NCBI GenBank assembly: GCA_007136585.1
Contig: SLGR01000159.1
Location: 1-11,051 of the forward strand
Reading direction: 5' to 3'
DNA from: Candidatus Sumerlaeota bacterium
Lineage (GTDB): Bacteria; CG03; SLGR01
Length of the DNA: 11,051 bases
Part shown: piece after piece, positions 1 to 11,051 of the stretch
Layout of the letters: each line of letters opens with the position of its first letter
Position numbering within the stretch: position 1 is the stretch's first letter
Translations under genes and position numbers: made by a program
Notes under the pieces: model-generated
The model's database searches: none
What the model was told of the DNA's origin: nothing
Seen by the model: the letters and a program-made list of their open reading frames with translations, nothing else

Positions 1-885
1 ATATTAGTGAAAGTAATATCCGCAAGCTGTTTCAAGCCGCGTTTATTGGCGTAGGATTCCACGTCTCCGGATATATCCAGGACCCTGGAGGCGGCGCGGC
101 GGGAAGCCGGGTGCCAGGGGGCGATGATTTCCGAGACCGAAGTCTTGAGAAGATGGCGTATAACCTCGTTCATCCACTTATAGTAAGACTCAAAATCATT
201 TCCGAGACCGGCCAGGGAGAACCATATATCGGCCTCGGGCATATCCCGGCTCAGCCTGGAAGCGGCAAGGAGTGAGAACTTCTCGTTTACCGGGGATACT
301 ATCGTATCCCTGTGACCGGCATGCATCCCCGCTATGGAATCCCCGCCGTGCTCATAGATCTCAAGGGAGACGTTCTTTTCCCCGGATTCTTTCCTGATAA
401 GGTTTTCTATACTTTCAGCGGCATCTCCGACACTCCCTTCAAGGGTCAGTATATATACAGGCACATCTTCCCCTGCTTCGGAGAGTTCACGCGCCAGATG
501 TCCTTCGTCAAGAATCCTTTCGGCTCCGGAGACCCTTGTTTCGGGAGTGACCCTGAGTATACCACTGACACCTTCAACCGGCTCAACACCCGAAAGAATA
601 TCCTCCTCAATAATAAAACTGTCCCGGCGCGTAAAAAGCCCGGGTATCTCCGGGTCCCTGAGGTAAAGCGGATTCTGCTGCAAAGCCCATTTTTCAATAT
701 CATCTGCCGGGCTTACGTATCCGATACGTTTTTCACCTACTGTAAGGACGGCCATCTCCAGGGTGCCGGCCCCGGGGTGCCTGAGTTTCAGGTTCCTGTA
801 AAACTCTTTCAGTTCAAAGTACCTGCGCAGGGCCGAGAGGGTATCCCCGCCGCCTCCGGCAGCCCATATGATGTGGTATATATCC
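1..885 (-). other. Domain: DUF1152-like Rossmann domain (partial, continues off window)
   Basis: From about residue 3390 to the window edge. YHIIWAAGGGGDTLSALRRY (core AAGGGGDT at 840..863) matches the N-terminal GxGGGGDxxxA nucleotide-type loop of DUF1152 proteins. Later, DVPVYILTLEGSVGDAAESI corresponds to their second strand and Gly-turn. EHGGDSIAGMHAG (GGDSIAG at 327..347) matches the GGD-x-L-A-x-G motif, followed by SPVNEKFSLLAASRL for the SPL-x-D-x-x-x-LAA helix and ADIWFSLAGLGNDFE for the glycine-rich strand. DUF1152 proteins are mostly stand-alone prokaryotic proteins of about 300-350 residues with no proven function. The first Gly-rich loop suggests binding of a nucleotide or sugar nucleotide. 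The C-terminal end of the domain may lie below position 1. Confidence 0.68.
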
Positions 886-3800
886 TCGCCCTCAAGGAGC
901 CTGCGCTCAAGACTGCTGTAAAAACCTTCTTCTCCGGACGGGGCGTACCTTGTATCGGACCTTTTATTCCTGAGTATCCCCCACTTCAGGTTATCCGCAT
1001 AGGGAACCTGGCGCGAGGTATCCGAGGTCTTTTTCTTGAGGTACTCCCCGTTTATACGGTCAAACTTATCAAGATAAAACTCAAGTTTCTGTCTAAGCTG
1101 CCGTGACTCGCCCGGGGTAAGCTCACGGGTGAGCATATCATTCAGCATATGGTAAATATTGTTAAGCCCCACCACGTCAACCTGTTCAAGAAGAATCTTT
1201 CTGGCCGAACCTGAGTACCCTCTCTGGGTTTCACCTTTCGCCGAAGGAACGGTTCTAAGGTAAAGAGCGGTTATGATCTCGCTTATAAACCCCTTCTGCT
1301 GATTTACCACCCGTTTAAGCAGCCGTTTATCCGTTTTATCTCCTTTTTCCAGCAGTTCAAGGGATTTTTCAAGACTGGGAGCGTACTTGCGCCTGGTTAT
1401 AGTATTGAGCCTTAGTCTGTTGAGCCTGTCGGCAAGACTGATAAGCGAGCGGTAAAGAAGCGAGTTTTTAAATATATCGGCCAGCCTGAGAAAATGCGGG
1501 GGCCCCCGCTCAGCTACCAGCCGCTCCAGTATACGGCTGTTTCCTTCTGATTCCTGGGATATGAACCGGGCAAGAGCCTTGGTCTTGATATCTCCGAAAA
1601 CCTCTCCTGCATAAGTATCGGCAGCGCGGACCGATTCGTTCAGGGCATCTTCGTACCCTGACTCATCCTTTAAACCCCTGTACGTTTCTATCTGTTTTGC
1701 AGCCCTCCCGAGAAGCGCGCCTATGCGAAGGTTCATTTTCCTGACCCTTCCTTCCGTGAGCCCCTGCCGCTCTATCATATTCTTCCAGTAGTTTATATTG
1801 ACATAAATGACTCCGCTCTCCGGAACAACGTGAATAACCCTGTAAAGGTCAAACGGGTTTATAAACTCCCTATCCCTTTCCGGCTCGTAGAAAACTATCT
1901 TAGAGGCCGGATCTGAAATAATGAACCTGTCTATAAGCTCCGCGGCATCCCCGTAAAGAGGAAACTCCTCCGATATCTCCCTCAGGTCCTTAACCGCCGC
2001 CCTTATGAGCCCTGATTTCACGGAAGAATCACCCGGGGTAACACGCTCAACGGATTTAAAACCGGTTTTTAAGGAATGGCTCCCGGGTTCCGGCAAAGTA
2101 CCCTCTTCCCTTAATATATCCAAAACCTCTTCAGCGGAGTCAGCATACCGCACGCGGCTTCTTATATTATCAGAAACTGTGGGGGTTTCGTATCCCAGCA
2201 TGGTTTCAAATAACTTCTCCATTACAGGTTCCCAGAAACCCCGCCCCAGAAGTATCACGGGCCTCTCCGGAGTCATACCCGTGGTAAGCAGATCCAGTAT
2301 ATCAAAAAGAACCCTCATAACGGGTTTTTCTCCCGGAAGGAAAACAAACGCATTTGAGTTTGCTGTAACAAGGAGCTGATGGTTATGAATCCCTGTCGTA
2401 AATACGCTGTTCTCTATCTTAAGCTCCCCCTGGGAAGGTTCCATGCCGGGTTTCAAGTATATGACGCCCTGGAGCAGCTCCTCTTTCCCTTCAGCGCTTT
2501 CCGAAATAGCCTCGGCAAGCTCTCCCCGGATTCCGATTTTTACGGGAACATTTTCATCCATAAGTATCCGGACAGACTCCACAGCCTCAGAATGTTCACG
2601 GCTGAAAATACTGCTCTCAATTGTGGGATCGCCTACAAAAGTAACGCTGGGTGGAAGGGAGCTGAGCATATCCAGCCCCTCTTCCAGCTGGTTATTATGT
2701 TCTTCCATCTCCAACCGGGAGGTCCTGACAGGAAGGGCTTTGCGGGATTTTATATACTCAACAGCCTCGACCGGATCATCGGTAAAGACCGGCATTTCCG
2801 GAAGACGGTTCTCGGGCATCCCCGCAGCTCTCCAGGCCTCATACACAGATTCAACTATGGGACGCCAGAAACCCTCGTTATAGAAAATAAAGGGTATATC
2901 ATTGACCCATACGGCAAAGAGCTCATCAATGGTTCCTATACCTCCGGGCATTATTATCACCCCGTCGGAGTTCTCGTAAAGCCACTGTTTGCGGGTAATG
3001 AAATGCCTTGACTCATAGACATCTTCAACATACGGGTTTGTTCCCTGTTCCTGCGGAAGAATTATATTTGACCCCTGTGTTATTCTCTCGCTGATAGATT
3101 TTATAAGAGCGGCAGCATCCTCACCGGAGAGTTCCGGAAGCAGGGAGAACCCATCCCCGGTGTAAGTCTTAATAAGTTCTACAAGACTGTTACCTTCAAT
3201 CGGAAATCCTTCAAAGAAAGTTTCAAGTCCGGAAATATCGCGGGACTCTATAATCCGTATAAGTTCTTCCCTTGCGGCAACATACCCTTCAAGGGTGCCT
3301 TCCATCGCGGCTCCGGGGCCGGCACCGGTCCTTACAGACATCCCGCGGCGGAAAAGCTCCCTGCCTATTACCAAGGCGTCGCTGTAATCCGGGCCTCCCC
3401 GCCGGGTCCGCGCCGAACCGAAGCTGTTTACAGCCGGGAGCCACCTTGAGTGAACCTCCAGCATCTCTTCGCGCTCTTCAACGACCTCCCTGAGAACCCT
3501 GACGCCCTTCTCCGGGTACATTGAGTATATATCGGTATCTTTCCGCGAAGTTTCCGGGTCGGAGAGGGAAGCCATTGCCTCTTCCAGTGAAGTCCCCGCA
3601 GCCATAAGGCGCAGAAGTTCCAGACCCGAGTTCTCCACTTCGCCCTCTCTTTCAAACTCCATAGCCGCGCCGGCCAGGACTCTCCCAAAGGTATAGGAAT
3701 AAGCCGGCTCTGAAAACCTTCTTAAAAGAAGATCCTCAACCCGTGATATTATCCCCGTAATAAAACTCTGCTGTTCCCTGGCGTGGGTTTCGGCCTCCTT

Positions 3801-6800
3801 AAGAAGCCCGGGAGCGGATAAACCGTCTATCCCGGTCATCAGCTTCATTCCCCTTCTAAAATCCTTCATATCCCTCTCCCCCGCGGCGCCGGCGTTAAGG
3901 TAAGCCGAAAAAGCTTCGGCAAACGGAAGATGGTCTTCCAGGTAACCGAGATTTTGAAAATGATGTATGAGTTCGTGGTCCAGGACCCAGCGGAACATTC
4001 CCTCTTCAAGGTTAGGACGTATAAAGATCTCTTTTCTTACGGCTCTATACCCGCCCAGGGTTCTCAGAAAATCGTAAACATTCAGAAAACCCCACCAGGC
4101 CGTGAAAATTACAAACGGGGCTATCTTCCATATAATTCCATCGCCAACGCCGAAATCCCCGAAGAGCATTGCTGAAGCCGCGGCGTTCAGCGCCGCAAAA
4201 CCGGGGAGCGCGTATTTCACCCGCTGAAGAAGAGTATCGGAGCTTACGGATACCCTGGAGGCGGCATCGTTTATCTCTTCTTCGGAAAGGTCAGGCCTCA
4301 GAATCCGAAGAAGCTCGGCCGGACGCTCATTTATAAGTTCTTCCTGCCGGGATGTAAACCCCCGTCCGGAGCGGGGCGCGGAAGGCGCGGAAACAGCGGC
4401 GGGCAAAACCTTCTGCGGGTCAGCTTCGGCATAGGGAAAGAAATTCTCCGCGCCGGGGGCCGCGGTATGCTCCTCGCCGTATACGGAGACCCTTATCGCA
4501 GGAGCGTCTTCAGGTGATATTATAGTAACACCCTCCCCCGTAATGCTTATCTCAAGATGCGCGCCGCGGAAGTTTAAGGTAAAGCTCATCTTCCCGGCTC
4601 CCTCGGGAACCTCGGGGGAAAGAACCAGCATATCATCCCTGAACTTAAGTCCGGCGAACCCTCTTATAAGAGCGTAATAAATGCCTCCCAGGTTCGCGGT
4701 TGCCACCCCGTCCCGGGCCGTCTTCTCCAGAAGCGCGGGGTTTTCCGTATCAACCGCGATATCAACGGCCTCTCTGAGATACTCGTTTGCCGCCCCGGTA
4801 TTGCCCGCAATATTCTCAAGGACAGAGATCATGCTGTAGCTCAGCGTTGACCCGGCGGCGGTTTTGGGGGCGTAATACTCCTGGTTCCTTAAGAGATGGG
4901 TATTATCAAATATATCTGCACTTATATCCTCCCTGGAACTGATCCTTTCCCTGAATCCCTGCGGGAAAATATCCCTCATCACATACAGCATCATAACATC
5001 GGGCTGTTTCAGGACCTGGTACCTGTACGGCTCCTGGAAGGGGAGCTTTCCTTCCTCGTAGAGCCTTGAAATTATAAGATCGGTTTTCGGATTGGGGTAA
5101 CCGGGTCTTGCCGGATCCTCAAAATCGGGGCCGAGCAGGTCCAGCGGGAGGCGTTTATCCCAGTTCCCGGATTCAAGTATCAGACCCCTCTCGCTGTCAT
5201 AAGGTATGGATATACGGTCAATTATATCGCTCCCTCTTTCCATAAACTCACCGTACTCCTCCTCCGACATGCCTATACGCTCCAGGAGACGGCTCCGCTC
5301 ATCATCCGGCATACCTTCAAGGAGTTCCATGGCAGCGTATATGGACATCGCGGCCATAATATTGTTGTAAGCGTTATTTACTACTCCGCCTTCATCGTCA
5401 ATATCCTTCTCGGCCCATTCGTTGGGCCCGATCGTCCGCGTATCATAGAAACCGGTCCGGCTGTTATATACCGTAAACTCGGGATCGGCAGCAACCCTTG
5501 CTATCTCAACTAACATCTCGGGAGCGTGACCGGAGAAGAACTCATCATCACCTGCGCTCTCCCTGTAATTCAGGAGAGCTGCGGCTATATCCCAGTTTAT
5601 GTGGTACTGAAAATCCCGGGTAAGGTCCCTGAGCTCCCTGTCTCCTCTCATATAGGTCAGCGGGGTATGCTCCTGGCCTCCCTCGTAAACTCCCGGCTCA
5701 AGTTCCCTGACCATTCCACCCTGCCAGGGGAACCTGGCCCCACCTCTGTAACCGAGCCGGGATGCCCTCTCACGGGCCCCTGAAAGACTGTTATGCCGGT
5801 ACTTAAGGAGTGAACGCGCAATATCAGGCTGGGTATTCATAAAAAACGGGAGCATGAATATCTCGGTATCCCAGAAAATATGACCCTGGTAATGGTCGCT
5901 GAAATTCCTTGCCCCTATATTTGAGAGGCCTCCGTCCGGGCGGATAGACTGAAGTAGAGAGAAAGACGCATATTTTACAGCCCGGTCAAGTTTGGGGTCT
6001 CCCGTAACATCTAAGGCGGATGCTTCCCAGAGTTCACCCCATTTACCGGCAGATTCTTCCAGCAGCTCTTCAAAGCCTTTCCCCTGCCGGGCTGTGAGAA
6101 AAGCCTTATTTTCTATTTCTTCCTTACTTTCAAGACCACTGTCTTTTGAAGAAAATACCCCCAGGGTTTTCTCAAAAGTAACGGGGCTCCCACGACGGGC
6201 CCTTACCGAGGCGGAGTGGCTTATCCACCCGGGCCTCTTTACGGTCTCAGTCTCCGGGGTCACTTCCCTGCCTCCGGAGAAGACCCTGTTCCTGACCGCC
6301 TGGGAAACGTACATTCCGTTATTAACCGTTCTGGAGGTCATAAGCATCAGATTCTCTTCCGATTTAAGGGTCTCCTCTTCTAAAAGCTTCAGAACGTCGC
6401 CTCTGACATTGGTATTTGTAACTTCACCGTTTATGCCTGACTCAAATTCAATCGTTCCGCTGAAATTAACCGGGGTTACCTCAACCTCCAGAGCACCGGT
6501 GGCGGGGTTTGCCATATTCAGCATCCGCCTGAAACTTATATCGGCTATCCGACCGTCAGGGTCCTTCCAGCGGAGAGAGCGTGTAAGAACCCCGGTTTTC
6601 ATATCAAGCCTGCGGGAATAATCCAGAAGTTCTCCGGTAGAAGTACTGAACCATTCCCCCGTGACACCGCCAGAATTTATCCTGAAGCGAAGCGGCATCC
6701 AGTCAGGAATATTTACAAGTTGTTCTATTCCTGTCTGGTCCTGCTCGTAAAAACCTGCCAGGTATGTATTGGATTTCATCCCGTTGAAAAATCCTTCCTC

Positions 6801-9800
6801 GGATATAGAACGGCTCATTATCTTACCGTTCCCCAGCCCGAACCTGGCATCATAGTAACTTTCAAGCTCAGGATCATAATTATCAACAGATATTATCCAG
6901 TTATCGAAAGGCAAAGCGCCCTCTGCAGAGCCGCGCCCATATATTCCGGAAAACCCGGAAATCATTAAACCCGTGAGCCCCATTAATTCCGATGAATCAG
7001 GTGTTTTAGTGTCATCACCGGAGATTATAGATTTCCTTAAATCTTCCAGTTCCCTTAAATAAATATCTGAGAAATACGGGTAAGAATCCCTGTACTCGGA
7101 TAAATCCTCTACCGCCTGGTCAATAATTATTAATTTTGAGTTCCGGGTCTCAGCATTATAAATATCCCTGACTGCCGAAGAGTATATAACGGTTATCTCC
7201 GAGGTAGAATTCAAACCTTTCTCCCTTATAGACTCATCAATCCTAACCACATCAGTTTCCACGGAAGTTGACATTCCTGCTTCAAGCATTCTCCGGGCAA
7301 GAGGAATATCGGAAAGATCAGCCTTTATCTTTGAAAAATCCACTTGAGTTCCGCCTGAAACATATTCAGCTATTTTTTGCAGGATAAGCCGTTCATCCTC
7401 TATACCATTAATAAAATTAATCCCCTGCTGAATCCCAACCATATTGAGTCTTCTTGTTATTATTTCTTTCTCTCCGGAACTTAGCGAATTCCAGGTTTCT
7501 GCAAATTCCAAAATCGCTTCAGGCTCCATAAGAATAAGAAAATCATTAAAATTATACGGAGCTAAATCAGGTATTATAACGCCAGGGGATAAAACTTCTT
7601 CTTCCTGATACCCAAGAAGGTTTCTGTAAACCTCCGCTTTTATTTTCTTATCCTCCAATATAGATGAGCCTTTAGATATTTCTATTATCCGGTCCATGTT
7701 TCTCAATACAAATTCTCTATATTCCTCTTCAACTTCGCCAGCATTTAACTGCTTATCTACCTCCATTAAATCAACCTGGTAATACTGAGTCTGCCCCTTA
7801 ACTATGGACTCCGAATTTACCTGCACTTTATATACCCCGTCCTGCTCCCAGACTGTAACCCGGATAATTTCGGATTCCTTCCGCATAAGTTCGAATAATT
7901 CACTGTCCTGCAGTTCATTATTGACGTTTCTAATAATGCTCAGCAGTTCAAGTAACTTCATTCTCTCAACTTCATCAGAAGGGGCGGCGCTGCTAAATGA
8001 AAAACTTGGGAATAAATGGATAACTTCTACCTTGCCGTATGTGTACTGGTAGCTCTTTAGTAGATCAGCTTCGGAAAAAGCTCTTTCAAGTTCGTCAAAC
8101 TTAAGTCTTCCATTGCCATCCAGATTCACATCAACGGTAGTATAAAAAAGAGGCGAATCATATAATCTTAGTTTTGCTGTGCCGGCTGAAATATCTATTT
8201 CCTCAAGGAAAAGTTCAGCCATAAAAACAACTTTATTTTTTAGTTTATCGGAGCCGTCAGCTTTTTTAATAAGCTCACCGGTGTTTTCGCAATACTCTGT
8301 ATATAAAGACTCAAAGTCAAGCTCCTTGTAGCGTTCAACTTTTTCAAGAAGAGAATCAATATTTGTAACATATTCCCTGTAGGTCTCAGCAAAGTCCTCC
8401 CGCTCATTAGTAAAAGCATAGCGAGTCGGATAATTTTCACTTATCTTATAATAAATGATATCCCCCAAATCCCTTACAGTAATGTCATCCTGTATAGCTT
8501 CTCTCTCAATATGAAACCCAAGCTCGTCTTCTATGGCTGTAAGGATATTCTTTATATTTTCTTCGGAAGCTCCGTGGTCCCCGATAAGAAATGTTCTGAA
8601 CTGCCTCCTTATATGCGGGTCTCCCTGTATCTCAGAAAAACTGAGTCCGAGTTCACTTCTTACTATATTTCGCACCTTCTCGGGTATATTGGTGCTCAGC
8701 CTGCTCCATTCCTCGTATCTTTCCGGATCCTCTGTCTTCAGCACATTAAGATGAAGATTATGTCCTATCTCGTGGACAACGGGCCGCATTGAACCGTAAC
8801 TTATTATATCCATTGAAGTATGGAAAAGTCCCCCGGCGCCTGTAGCGTAATCCCCTTCCTGGTAATGAAGCATTGCGTCAAGGTGCTTAAGATGCCAGCC
8901 CGGAAGGTTATCCAGAACCCGCTGAACATATTCCTGGGATTCTTCATTATGATTAATAAGAACAACCTGGTTTTCCCCGAGAAAAGATTCGCGCGCAACG
9001 CGGCCCGCGCGGGTAAGCGCTGGATGCGAAGCATCAAACATCATTAATCCGGCCAGAAAAATAATTACTGCGGTCATAAACTTGCCGGTATTCCGCAGGC
9101 GGATAGCTGCAAAAGATCTTTCCCAGGGCTTGGCTTTACGCACAACCGCGTTTATAACAGCGTTTACTATAGCAGTTGCAGAGACAGTTAATGAGAATAT
9201 GGAAAAAACCACCGCAGTTTTAACGGAACCCCTAAACAACGTATAATCCATGGAAAGAAAATTTTGAAAAGAGTCCACATAGAAAGAGAGCAGGGCGGGA
9301 TACATAAACACATACGCCCCCATAAGTATCCCTGCCGGAAGCAGGGCGTACCTTAGGAAATATTTTGAAAATTCAACAGCCCGTCTCTTAATCCTTCTAC
9401 TCACATAATCTCTTATCCTGGGGTTAAGGTCGTATGTCTCTCTGAATATCTCATTTATTACCCACCTGTTTGCTCTGCGGAAATCGGCGGCGGGGTTCAG
9501 GTCAAGGTAACCTATAACAGCAATAAATCTGTTCAGCTGGGTATAAAGCGGACCGGAAGAGCTGAGTAAATCAGACGGGATATACAGGCGCTCGCCTTTT
9601 TTAAATGAAAGGATATATTTTTCTGATGATTTTACTACCGGTTCAAAAAGACGGATATTCCCTGAATCAAGATACCCCTCAAGGGTATCTATAATTTTAT
9701 GATGCTGATAAGAAACTTCCTCTCCTGCAGATGATTTAAGAGAAGAAACGGCACCTTCTAAGACTTCTTTCTCCTCAGCATTAAGGGTCCGGGACGTTAT

Positions 9801-11051
9801 ATCATCCGCAGTTATATCAATCCGTCCGGCCCCAATAAGTATCTCGCTTTCCCGTATGTAGGAGGGGGCCAGAAATTTTTCTTCGGGCAGGGTCTGAATC
9901 TGTTCTCTCCTGAACCTCTCGGCGTACCCGTCAAGAGAAGCCCCGGAACCGAAATCCCCGCATAGCTCCCCGATAAGGCCTCCGCGAGTAAAAACCTGTT
10001 TCCACTCGGCCGCGGCCCGGGTATCTTCACTCTCCTGAGGGTTCTCCCCGCTTACAAAGTACGTATCATAATCCCCAGCCCAAGGGGAGAGGTAGCTAAA
10101 GAGACGGAGCCCTGAAAGTTCTTCCGACCGGCCTGTAAGAATGGTATCCATAACACGGGTAACTTTCCGGTGCGTCGGATGGTTATCCTTTGAGTGAGGG
10201 AGGCTTACCCCAAGGATATTATCTCTCCCGTATCCTTCCAGGACTTTCTCAAGAGCCTCATTCAGTATGCTTACGCCCTCCGTCTCAACCTCGCCGGAAC
10301 TCAGTCCCGGGAACCTGACGGTCATTCTGCCCGGAGCCCCCTCGGATAGAAGAGCCGCGGCGGCTTCAGCTTCCGCAAGCCTACGGGAGTGCTCTCCGTG
10401 GCTTTCGGTTATTATCCAATTCTCAACATCTATACCCTGTTCCAGAAGGTGCCGGATGAACGCGCCACCCGCTATCTCCGCGTCATCCGCGTGGGGTGAT
10501 ATAAATACAAAAACTTTTTTCGTATCGCGGGTATCAAATAACTCTTCTGAAGGAACCGATCGGGTACGGGTACCGTCAGAAAGAAGCTCCTCAACTGTAA
10601 AAGAATGGGCAAAATCTTTGTTTTCTGAAACCCCAAATTTTTCAGCCATATATCCGAAAAACCTGACTGAATGCTCCGCCGCTACGTCATACGGGGTCCT
10701 TAATATCTCATCCTTATAGGCCCTTATCCCGTTTACAAGGAACTCTTTAAGGCGGTCGCCGAATACAAAGAACCAGTTATGCTCCGAATCAGATAAATCC
10801 GCCGGAAGGGTCTCGTAATAGAGAATATTAACCGGCTCGGCCCTGGGAAGAGTCCGCCCCCACTCCAGTATCCTGTTTCTTAAGTAGTCGTCTCCTTCGG
10901 GAAGAAGAATAATATCCGGATTAGACTTTGAGAATATTTTCTCAATCCTATCAGCTTCCCCGTCAAGAACCTCCACCCGGTTATCTTCCTTAAGTCTGCT
11001 TATAAGGTTTCCGGCAAAGAGACTGGATTCACCCGGGGTTCTTTCAATGAC
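1..11051 (-). CDS. Internal slice of a giant multidomain protein gene (partial at both ends)
   Basis: Reading the minus strand from 11051 gives 3,683 sense codons down to position 3 with no stop, and recognisable protein families occur in this one frame from end to end, so there is no frameshift. Neither the start nor the stop codon is in the window. In order the chain carries a PIG-L-like remnant, a PIG-L deacetylase, three hydrophobic helices, a lethal-factor-like zincin, an EF-hand-like loop, a GH65 domain, two hydrophobic helices, a second zincin, two LOG domains, a possible decayed M48-like zincin and a DUF1152-like domain. Most of these families normally occur as separate proteins of 200 to 800 residues. 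Such fusions are known from giant genes of Omnitrophota; that assignment is inferred from architecture. Codon choice (ATA, AGG, GGG, CTT common) is even across domains. No Shine-Dalgarno site or internal start is needed to explain any domain. Residue numbers in other entries count from the codon at 11051. Confidence 0.93.
890..1559 (-). other. Helical, basic unassigned region before the DUF1152-like domain
   Basis: Residues about 3165-3387 are rich in Arg, Lys and Leu, with long helices (ADRLNRLRLNTITRRK, then SLEKSLELLEKGDKTDKR, and ESRQLRQKLEFYLDKFDRIN). In the middle, QKGFISEIITALYLRTVP followed by RKILLEQVDVVG (about 1165-1297) has the E then Q-x-D-x-V spacing of a minimal PD-(D/E)xK nuclease fold, but no E-x-K strand follows, so this is weak. 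The region may simply be a spacer. No membrane span is present. Confidence 0.4.
1560..2100 (-). other. Possible decayed M48-like zincin region
   Basis: Residues about 2985-3164. The segment ESGVIYVNINYWKNMIERQG followed by a helix and RIGALLGRAAKQIETYRG resembles the strand and active-site helix of M48-like zincins, but where HExxH would be expected the sequence is GRAAKQ (within 1681..1720). A later RAADTYAGEVFG at 1593..1628 resembles the E-x-x-AD-x-(Y/F) helix that supplies the third ligand in M48 enzymes. With no His pair, zinc binding is not expected. The upstream part (AAVKDLREISEEFPLYGDAAELIDRF) is helical. The family call is tentative and rests on pattern order only. Confidence 0.3.
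2105..2655 (-). other. Domain: second LOG-like domain, catalytic motif lost
   Basis: Residues about 2800-2982 repeat the order of the preceding LOG domain. SVTFVGDPTIESS corresponds to VNSFGSARTRR, and VKIGIRGELAEAI to VRTGAGPGAAMEG. NSNAFVFLPGEKPVMRVLFD corresponds to NSDGVIIMPGGIGTIDELFA, and GRGFWEPVMEKLFETM to NEGFWRPIVESVYEAW. The signature PGGxGTxxE is replaced by PGEKPVMRV (PGEKP at 2322..2336), and the RK of the first copy is replaced by HNHQLLV, so the copy cannot use normal LOG chemistry. LOG enzymes work as dimers with the active site near the interface, so this copy could serve as a built-in structural partner of the intact one. The relation between the two copies is visible by eye; the partner role is inference. 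Confidence 0.75.
2745..3470 (-). other. Domain: LOG family (lysine decarboxylase-like fold) nucleotide phosphoribohydrolase, motifs intact
   Basis: Residues about 2528-2769 match the LOG (TIGR00730-type) fold. VNSFGSARTRR is the first nucleotide-binding strand and loop; TGAGPGAAMEG (Gly-rich core 3303..3326) is the second. LPQEQGTNPYVED and RHFITRK supply the conserved R-K stretch. MPGGIGTIDELF carries the signature PGGxGTxxE at 2922..2948 (P2702 to E2710). The Arg and Glu of these motifs are catalytic in LOG proteins, which release the base from nucleoside 5'-monophosphates such as AMP or cytokinin ribotides. About 70 residues between the Gly-rich motif and LPQEQ are absent from ordinary LOG proteins. 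These proteins are normally cytoplasmic dimers of 180-250 residues; here the tandem copy that follows may replace the second subunit. Activity is predicted; substrate unknown. Confidence 0.87.
3480..4050 (-). other. Domain: compact HExxH gluzincin metalloprotease
   Basis: Residues about 2335-2524. HELIHH is at 3960..3977 (H2359, E2360, H2363) in the context VLDHELIHHFQNLGYLEDHL. A likely third zinc ligand is E2379 in FAEAFSAYL at 3897..3923, 16 residues after the second His, which gives a compact gluzincin core. The downstream YSYTFGRVLAGAAMEFE and GTSLEEAMASLSD are typical of the C-terminal helices of small zincins that pack under the zinc site. Compared with the first zincin, the FAE(A/T)(F/Y)xxY motif is kept but the insertion between HExxH and Glu is missing. 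It lies directly after two hydrophobic helices, so it is probably membrane-proximal. The exact peptidase family is uncertain; it shares features with both M34/ATLF-type and M48/M56-type enzymes. Confidence 0.7.
4065..4470 (-). other. Pro/Ala-rich linker, helical piece and two probable transmembrane helices
   Basis: After the GH65 C-terminal sheet, residues 2195-2225 form a low-complexity linker rich in Ala, Pro and Ser (VLPAAVSAPSAPRSGRG). A small helical unit follows (RQEELINERPAELLRILRPD, then SEEEINDAA). Two hydrophobic segments come next: 4158..4211 (ALPGFAALNAAASAMLFG) and 4065..4136 (IIWKIAPFVIFTAWWGFLNV and on). The second is strongly hydrophobic; the first is Ala-rich and weaker. They immediately precede the second zincin, the same order as in the first membrane and protease block at 8330-9350. 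Confidence 0.65.
4471..6915 (-). other. Domain: glycoside hydrolase family 65 (phosphorylase-like), phosphate-site His lost
   Basis: Residues 1379-2194 cover all three GH65 parts. The N-terminal beta-sandwich starts at FDNWIISVDNYDPELE, with LGNGK near 6826-6840 and VNIPDWMPL. The (alpha/alpha)6 barrel carries GHIFWDTEIFMLPFF (core at 5841..5876), GGARFPW and GPNEW. The C-terminal sheet follows TANLGGIYYALIRGFAGL. The general acid is E1878 in GPNEW (codon 5418..5420), as in maltose phosphorylases. LKQPDVMM and YYAPKTAAGSTLS also align with the family. However, the His of HGS(S/T)LS is Ala (4854..4856), and the His of GIHAAS is Ala in GVATAN (4701..4703). In phosphorylases the latter His contacts phosphate. 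The acid is followed by an acidic insertion (EKDIDDEGG) before NNAYNN. The domain may act as a hydrolase, like GH65 kojibiose hydrolase, or only bind alpha-glucosides. Confidence 0.9.
6920..8085 (-). other. Unassigned mixed alpha/beta stretch between the first zincin and GH65
   Basis: Residues 990 to about 1377 are not recognised. The part near 7900-7750 has alternating strands (IIRVTVWEQDGVYKVQVNSE, then QYYQVDLMEV) like a small beta domain. Residues around 7740-7300 are helical and acidic (EEEYREFVLRNMDRIIEI and LSSGEKEIITRRL). A later piece with SEITVIYSSAVRDIYNAE and SKLIIIDQAV (about 7210-7110) looks like a Rossmann-type strand-helix pattern. The last stretch before GH65 carries a Gly/Ser-rich segment (LMISGFSGIYGRGSAEG) that may be a flexible linker. 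This part is more AT-rich than the flanking domains. No catalytic motif is seen. Confidence 0.45.
8091..8126 (-). other. EF-hand-like calcium-binding loop
   Basis: Residues 976-987 read NLDGNGRLKFDE. Aligned to the 12-residue EF-hand loop this gives N1, D3, N5, G6, L8 and E12, that is, oxygen ligands at positions 1, 3, 5 and 12, Gly at 6 and a hydrophobic residue at 8. It is followed by a helix (LERAFSEADLL), as in the exiting helix of an EF-hand. The preceding residues (FYTTVDV) look like a strand rather than a helix, so this may be a lone calcium-binding loop in a beta context. No second EF-hand is nearby. Confidence 0.6.
8330..9010 (-). other. Domain: anthrax lethal factor-like (M34/ATLF-type) gluzincin metalloprotease
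   Basis: Residues 681 to about 907. The zinc motif HEIGH is at 8760..8774 (H760, E761, H764) in the context VVHEIGHNLHL. It is preceded by VQRVLDNLPGWHLKHLDAML and then GAGGLFH, the helix, strand and G-x-(Y/F) order seen in the lethal-factor-like catalytic fold. A candidate third zinc ligand is E889 in EDFAETYREYV at 8367..8399, comparable with the EFFAEAFR segment of lethal factor. The distance from the second His to this Glu is 125 residues, much longer than in lethal factor. The intervening segment is largely helical and contains a GDHGASEENIKN loop, so it looks like an insertion. Predicted role: zinc-dependent endopeptidase next to the membrane. Substrate unknown; both zinc motifs are intact, so activity is plausible. 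Confidence 0.72.
9036..9350 (-). other. Three hydrophobic, probable transmembrane helices
   Basis: Three segments look like membrane spans: 9276..9350 (residues 568-592, YALLPAGILMGAYVFMYPAL and on), 9141..9218 (residues 612-637, TAVVFSIFSLTVSATAIVNA and on) and 9036..9083 (residues 657-672, KFMTAVIIFLAGLMMF). They are preceded by RRIKRR, and the second is followed by VVRKAKPWERSFAAIRLR, a basic loop typical of the cytoplasmic face. With a cytoplasmic N side, the three spans would place the following zincin outside the membrane. The third segment is short, so an even number of crossings remains possible. Confidence 0.75.
9361..9869 (-). other. Unassigned helical spacer between PIG-L domain and membrane helices
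   Basis: Residues 395 to 563 match no family I recognise. The segment is hydrophilic, with predicted helices (for example LNAEEKEVLEGAVSSLKS) and a short beta-like stretch around SSEKYILSFKKGERLYIP. It ends in a strongly basic run, RDYVSRRIKRRAVEFSKYF, just before the first hydrophobic helix. Under the positive-inside rule, this basic run argues that this end, and so the upstream PIG-L domain, faces the cytoplasm. No catalytic motif is visible. Confidence 0.5.
9870..10520 (-). other. Domain: PIG-L/LmbE family de-N-acetylase, motifs intact
   Basis: Residues 178 to about 394 form a full PIG-L/LmbE domain. After a strand (KKVFVFIS) comes PHADDAE at 10476..10496, the family's PHxDDxE metal and catalytic motif, followed by GGAFIRHLLEQG, typical of the first helix. 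The second metal motif is HPTHR at 10167..10181, matching HPxH(R). By analogy with MshB, the ligands would be H187, D190 and H294. Family members hydrolyse N-acetyl groups from N-acetylglucosamine-type sugars in GlcNAc-phosphatidylinositol, mycothiol or bacillithiol precursors and chitooligosaccharides. The substrate here cannot be read from sequence. The end is placed near FRREQIQTLP, after the usual terminal GxxLxxYAERFRRE helix. The fused GH65 and zincins suggest a glycan or glycoconjugate substrate rather than a small thiol precursor, but this is inference. Confidence 0.85.
10557..11051 (-). other. Domain: degenerate PIG-L/LmbE-like C-terminal half (partial)
   Basis: Residues 1 to about 165 resemble the second half of a PIG-L/LmbE de-N-acetylase. 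A helix is followed by NPDIILLPEGDD, then a strand containing NILYYE, and a C-terminal helix with a KDEIL segment where LmbE proteins have the K-x-x-A-x-x-x-H-x-S-Q region. The same order of elements occurs in the complete domain just downstream. The zinc-ligand motif HPxHR of that copy is replaced here by DYLRNR, so this copy probably does not bind metal at that site. The first half of the domain, with its PHxDDxE equivalent, would lie outside the window. The assignment rests on secondary-structure order and comparison with the neighbour and is weaker than for the next domain. Confidence 0.4.

Follow-up and report, generated by a model that had tools for sequence, protein, structure and literature searches.

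An uninterrupted frame across the window

The analysed stretch of DNA (hereafter the window) is 11,051 bp long and is occupied on its minus strand, from position 11051 down to position 3, by a single open frame of 3,683 sense codons that holds neither a stop nor an N and is open at both contig ends, as is proper to the interior of a giant gene. Scanning of the whole window revealed that the other five frames were interrupted by 93–281 stops each, their longest open stretch being 276 codons, and the chance of a stop-free frame at this base composition was about 10^-87. In addition, coding-like patterns of GC by codon position and of purines were verified in all 200-codon blocks of the frame. 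The proposal of the first-pass annotation that the window lies inside one giant minus-strand gene was therefore borne out.

The window is the whole of contig C106 in the host draft genome (G000; 1.88 Mb, 257 contigs, 88% complete), so both of its ends are assembly breaks, not gene ends, and the full length of the gene is not visible, as had been recognised at the outset. Its composition agreed with that of the other contigs of the host genome (tetranucleotide correlation of 0.85–0.96). Extension of the contig had been suggested as a check; searches with the last 400 bp of each end retrieved no overlapping contig. Giant frames were found in related genomes. The window presented no tRNA, no Rfam match and no convincing internal promoter or terminator. 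Moreover, a Shine-Dalgarno-like motif accompanied 10 of the 80 ATGs of the giant frame, no more often than in a comparison frame on that strand (8 of 84), so nothing pointed to the separate internal starts that had been named as evidence against a single gene.

Domains and modules encoded in the frame

From the N to the C terminus, the frame encodes a PIG-L domain, a module of ~150 aa, three helices resembling transmembrane (TM) segments, a stretch containing HEIGH, a long stretch without assignment and a GH65 enzyme, followed by a weak TM hairpin, a stretch containing HELIH, a LOG pair, another stretch without assignment and a weak DUF1152 match. Recognisable domains were thus found throughout one and the same frame, in agreement with the first-pass annotation. 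All of the features below are on the minus strand.

The PIG-L/GlcNAc deacetylase domain (residues 182–302; 10146–10508) was identified by Pfam (PF02585, 1.5e-10 on the piece) and by its zinc motifs, both of which are kept: HxDD as PHADD at residue 186 and HPxH as HPTH at residue 291. The ~150-aa recurrent module (residues 414–567; 9351–9812) was detected by sequence comparison and is common to contigs C195 and C85 of the same genome. An affinity of this module with allophycocyanin was considered and rejected, the best PDB match (E 0.027) being marginal and not trusted, and single-sequence folds of both the module (pLDDT 54) and the C-terminal part of the frame (pLDDT 39), where the DUF1152-like stretch lies, were of a confidence too low to serve in a fold search. 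Hydropathy placed the three TM-like helices at residues 570–676 (9024–9344), and they are followed by a metallopeptidase-like stretch (8172–8984) with HEIGH at residues 760–764 (8760–8774), inside which a Peptidase_Mx1 match at residues 873–954 was weak, below the Pfam gathering score.

The GH65 enzyme is complete (residues 1383–2196; 4464–6905; Pfam 1.8e-58; PDB 3wiq, 2e-77), with its N-terminal, catalytic and C-terminal domains all above the Pfam gathering score. After it comes the weaker hairpin (residues 2285–2323; 4083–4199), followed by a second metallopeptidase-like stretch (3876–4064) with HELIH at residue 2359 and a weak DUF6782 match at residues 2330–2392, also below the gathering score. 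The first LOG/Lysine_decarbox domain (about residues 2519–2783; 2703–3497), found by domain search and conserved in genomes G001 and G004, keeps PGGIGTIDE intact, whereas the second copy (about residues 2784–2990; 2082–2702), recognised by sequence comparison, is degenerate and has lost PGGxGT, so that the LOG motif PGGxGTxxE is present in the first copy only. A search with the pair across the contigs of the genomes returned LOG-type genes of many phyla; the tandem pair itself is present again in G001 and G004, which represent two other genera and carry it within long open frames, and it is the only module of the window with a clear counterpart in the giants of other genera. The DUF1152-like stretch (residues 3520–3634; 150–494) reached a Pfam value of 3e-4, below the gathering score. 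Across the window and the other giants, key motifs were intact in GH65, the first LOG copy, PIG-L, HD, adenylate kinase and P-type ATPase. No relative of the window was found in IMG/VR.

The GH65 module

The general-acid Glu of GH65 is kept at residue 1878 within GPNEW, a position occupied by E in 4ktp and by Q in 4ktr. Among themselves, the stand-alone GH65s found in the phylum mostly share 50–56% identity, but the module reaches only 27–29% with them, and this low identity marks it as an old divergent copy. Both kojibiose phosphorylase (3wiq) and trehalose-6-phosphate hydrolase (9lb6) share with it all three GH65 domains and the general-acid Glu. The His of the phosphorylase-like HxSS motif found in the phylum is replaced, the site reading AAGSTLS in the window, and 9lb6 also reads GST at the equivalent site; hydrolysis would therefore be as likely as phosphorolysis for this module. 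An ordinary stand-alone GH65 gene is also carried by the host genome (L007, contig C216, 2700–5468; 922 aa as called); its product has an extra C-terminal stretch resembling CBS domains, and purH-like and aminotransferase genes precede it.

Giant genes elsewhere in the host genome and order

At least six other giants were found in the host genome. Besides host contigs C195 and C85, the ~150-aa module was detected in G003, a genome of a neighbouring genus of the same order with frames of 13,409, 11,855, 9,921 and 9,127 codons, in which the module matches fall within the 9,127- and 13,409-codon frames. The contig with the 13,409-codon frame also carries the 11,855-codon frame, which has its own ATG and a signal-peptide-like start and runs off the contig, and the 9,921-codon frame is placed on a third contig. 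The 13,409-, 11,855- and 9,127-codon frames are free of N, and no N-derived residue was reported in the 9,921-codon frame.

Pfam scanning of three G003 frames revealed a complete P-type ATPase, GH2, GH94 (with a weaker glucoamylase match), glycosyltransferases, alpha-amylase, starch synthase, PLD, SF1 helicase, VanW and ABC1 kinase, in addition to a weaker M48 peptidase match. To this repertoire the giants of the host genome add adenylate kinase, GH130, protein kinase, FHA, HD, VWA and M28 peptidase, among others. Module positions differ between giants of different genera. A TM-containing unit of ~170 aa is repeated between the 11,855- and 9,127-codon frames at 64–91% identity (L134–L141; G003 contigs C25 and C36), and the two frames may belong to a single gene exceeding 20,000 codons.

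A common head and tail

The N-terminal 700 residues of the 11,855-codon frame were matched in the host genome (seven places), G001 (about 12), G003 (three) and G004 (one), and in none of the remaining 12 of the 16 genomes of the phylum. Alignment of 11 copies revealed a signal peptide and a conserved head of ~530 aa with the motifs DLHANYEVQ and GGFHSxGV; the heads on host contigs C110 and C161 are 88% identical. Several frames that stop before the next member of an array have a conserved tail with an IVPxLNK-like ending. Two tails of the host genome are 92% identical in DNA over 899 bp, contig C85 enters that tail at 91–97%, and C85, C24 and C243 have tail DNA in common at 91–97%. The build of the family in this order is a signal peptide with the ~530-aa head, followed by shuffled enzyme modules with TM helices and by the conserved tail.

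The window is an interior fragment and carries neither head nor tail. Its ~150-aa module is common to C195, in which a long frame ends just before an FtsH-like gene, and to C85, which runs into tail DNA, and from the presence of this module in tail- or FtsH-linked contigs we infer that the window belongs to the head-domain giant family.

A PDB search with the head profile gave no match. Comparison with the ChaN family by hhalign reached an E-value of 0.0011 and a score of 34, whereas none of 30 column shuffles scored above 22; both motifs were colinear, but the probability was only 21%, so the apparent ChaN/Tiki-like match is too weak to assign a fold. A complete short member of the head family (L189, contig C2 of G001, 2266–5535; 1,089 aa) is found in an array with another member, indicating that head-family members differ greatly in size.

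Neighbouring genes

Where the start of the head gene and the preceding sequence were visible, a gene for a membrane protein of ~180–200 aa was mostly found just upstream, at a distance of −29 to +11 bp and usually of −4 bp, a stop/start overlap. Response-regulator genes occur between array members. Moreover, an FtsH-type gene (AAA and Peptidase_M41) comes directly after the end of a giant frame in G000 and G003; in G001 a response-regulator gene lies between the two. Its product has the same hydrophobic N-terminus, AAA, AAA lid and M41 with HESGH as FtsH, but the canonical FtsH of the phylum is only ~40% identical to this giant-adjacent group, which forms a separate group of 77–80% identity across the same four of 16 genomes that carry the head; in the other genomes of the phylum, only the ~40% canonical FtsH was found, or none at the cut-off. 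As neighbours, the two genes could be missing jointly from an incomplete genome, and the co-occurrence of head and FtsH-like gene is suggestive only; from adjacency and co-occurrence, the FtsH-like protease may serve the giants. A secreted-looking protein of ~370–380 aa is also encoded upstream of giant arrays in G004 (L197, 3654–4796) and G001 (L190, 449–1567), and a weak RHS-repeat match was obtained for the protein of L197, where it was tested.

The head beyond the host phylum

The head profile was found in 17 of 386 genomes, four of the host phylum and 13 of other phyla. In other phyla it often opens long frames, such as those of at least 7,624 (G130), 7,319 (G214) and 6,653 codons (G345), these three being free of N, and the small ORFs upstream of head genes there are not recognisable relatives of the ~180-aa partner. 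In the giant of G130 the head is followed by a SecA_DEAD domain, which was absent from the window and from the giant stretches scanned in G000 and G003 (Pfam, E ≤ 0.01). Giant genes with a divergent SecA DEAD domain reportedly feature in the preprint of West-Roberts et al.; the head giant of G130 matches them in this respect, whereas the scanned giant stretches of the host phylum do not. No relative of the head was found in IMG/VR. A 24,616-codon frame in G242 was rejected, as 24,001 of its codons are masked N; at that locus (contig C22, L256–L259) ~72 kb of masked N behind a head-domain gene inflates the open frame. A genome of another phylum encodes the head on its own, in a protein of 565 aa whose start resembles a signal peptide (L266, G041 contig C69, 8139–9836).

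Proposed organisation and function

From the uninterrupted frame, its in-frame domains, the at least six other giants and the head, tail and neighbours of the family, all of them read directly from sequence, we infer that the window is probably an internal part of one of several related genes for giant, membrane-inserted proteins that combine many enzymes. The product would be a Sec-targeted, membrane-anchored chain of enzymes, perhaps proteolytically processed. The head would be exported by Sec and would anchor the chain at the envelope with the help of the small membrane partner, while the TM helices would thread it through the inner membrane and leave modules on both faces. The glycan and peptide modules (deacetylase, GH65, peptidases) might then act on the envelope or on scavenged polymers, and the FtsH-like protease, perhaps together with built-in metallopeptidase modules, might trim, release or turn over segments. 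The cell-surface attack or remodelling machine suggested by the first-pass annotation is in part consistent with the Sec-type signal peptides, TM helices, glycan enzymes and peptidases of the family. However, many modules are of cytoplasmic type (LOG, GH65, GH94, GH130, starch synthase, adenylate kinase, P-type ATPase and SF1 helicase), and a purely extracellular weapon does not account for them.

The modules as a whole are complete ordinary enzyme domains, mostly of cytoplasmic type, and would be well accommodated by a polyprotein, that is, one chain cut by its own metallopeptidase modules and the FtsH-like protease into separate, mostly soluble metabolic enzymes. Such processing is also favoured by the number of HExxH motifs, seven where 0.8 would be expected across the giants and fragments of giants that were examined, and by the distinct M41 protease gene adjoining the giants. 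Nevertheless, no cleavage sites were identified, the two HExxH stretches of the window match peptidase families only weakly, and FtsH normally degrades and does not cut precisely, which leaves the polyprotein a rather unlikely, though not negligible, explanation.

Conserved ends around variable middles also recall polymorphic effectors, and nucleotide-acting and signalling modules would need a cytosol, as expected if a common head and tail delivered shuffled middles into a partner or prey cell. Such a delivered system is improbable, given the size and many TM helices of the giants, the presence of a complete P-type ATPase, starch synthase and other modules unlike effectors, and the fact that no immunity-like genes were noticed next to the giants. 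It is even harder to credit that the window comes from an Omnitrophota giant of the published predatory type, devoted to adhesion and prey-wall degradation. In Omnitrophota giants, too, TM helices occur together with polysaccharide enzymes, signalling proteins and peptidases (PMC10066038; PMC12419801), and the head also begins giants in other phyla, one with SecA_DEAD, but Pfam found neither SecA_DEAD nor an adhesin domain in the window or in those giant stretches of the phylum that were scanned. Furthermore, the host phylum is represented by only 16 genomes in a collection that covers about half of GTDB species, and 276 Omnitrophota species were counted in 2023 (PMC10066038), which makes an Omnitrophota lineage unlikely and leaves the link drawn by the first-pass annotation unsupported. 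Finally, the short contigs (257 in the draft) and the run of N behind the G242 frame might suggest an artefact of assembly or annotation, or that decayed genes are read through. This reading has a minimal probability and is already contradicted by a window free of N, uniform coding signal, kept catalytic motifs, independent giants in other genomes of the same order and the fact that errors break frames and do not create them.

New here, as read from sequence, are the other giants of the host genome, the giant frames of a neighbouring genus, the family head and tail, the membrane partner, the FtsH-like neighbour and the head in other phyla. In its boldest form, which we put forward tentatively, the proposal is of a multi-phylum giant family with one secreted head, in which whole enzymes are shuffled between fixed head and tail and which, in this order, is coupled to a membrane partner and a dedicated FtsH-type protease; the chain might then be a genuine bacterial polyprotein or a membrane-threaded enzyme assembly line. 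The common head, tail, membrane partner and neighbouring protease offer a way to recognise such genes in fragmented genomes and to test export, anchoring and processing of giants. The enzyme mix, moreover, is that of ordinary metabolism and not of adhesion, a finding that calls into question the notion that giants serve only as surface weapons.

Comparison with known giant systems

Bacterial giant genes are known mainly from Omnitrophota, where they are called poorly conserved and of unknown role. Giant ORFs were defined there as longer than 20 kb (PMC10066038); the visible frame of the window reaches 11.05 kb and is open at both ends, and the frames of its relatives exceed 20 kb. For example, the giant of Velamenicoccus archaeovorus, of Omnitrophota, has 39,678 aa and 42 predicted TM helices (PMC10066038). 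Giant genes of up to ~85,800 aa were reported as common in Omnitrophota, Elusimicrobia and CG03 (West-Roberts et al., as cited in PMC12057145), and a protein of ~6,000 aa was described in Ca. Menyafoubacter, of the poorly resolved Auribacterota (PMC12057145).

As relayed by PMC12057145, the West-Roberts giants resemble the present family in their many TM regions and carbohydrate-degradation domains. The gigantic mosaic proteins of Omnitrophota, which carry Lipocone domains, similarly join polysaccharide enzymes, signalling proteins and peptidases with TM segments, but probably belong to another lineage (PMC12419801). With the Omnitrophota giant ORFs, the present family shares very long single frames, TM helices, proposed carbohydrate roles and poor conservation between genera; it differs in that some of those ORFs have adhesin domains, whereas ordinary metabolic enzymes are found here, in a small and probably different phylum (PMC10066038). 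The present family is also characterised by multi-gene arrays in which head, tail, membrane partner and FtsH-like gene are common to the members, a layout that is not described for Omnitrophota giants in the passages of PMC10066038 consulted.
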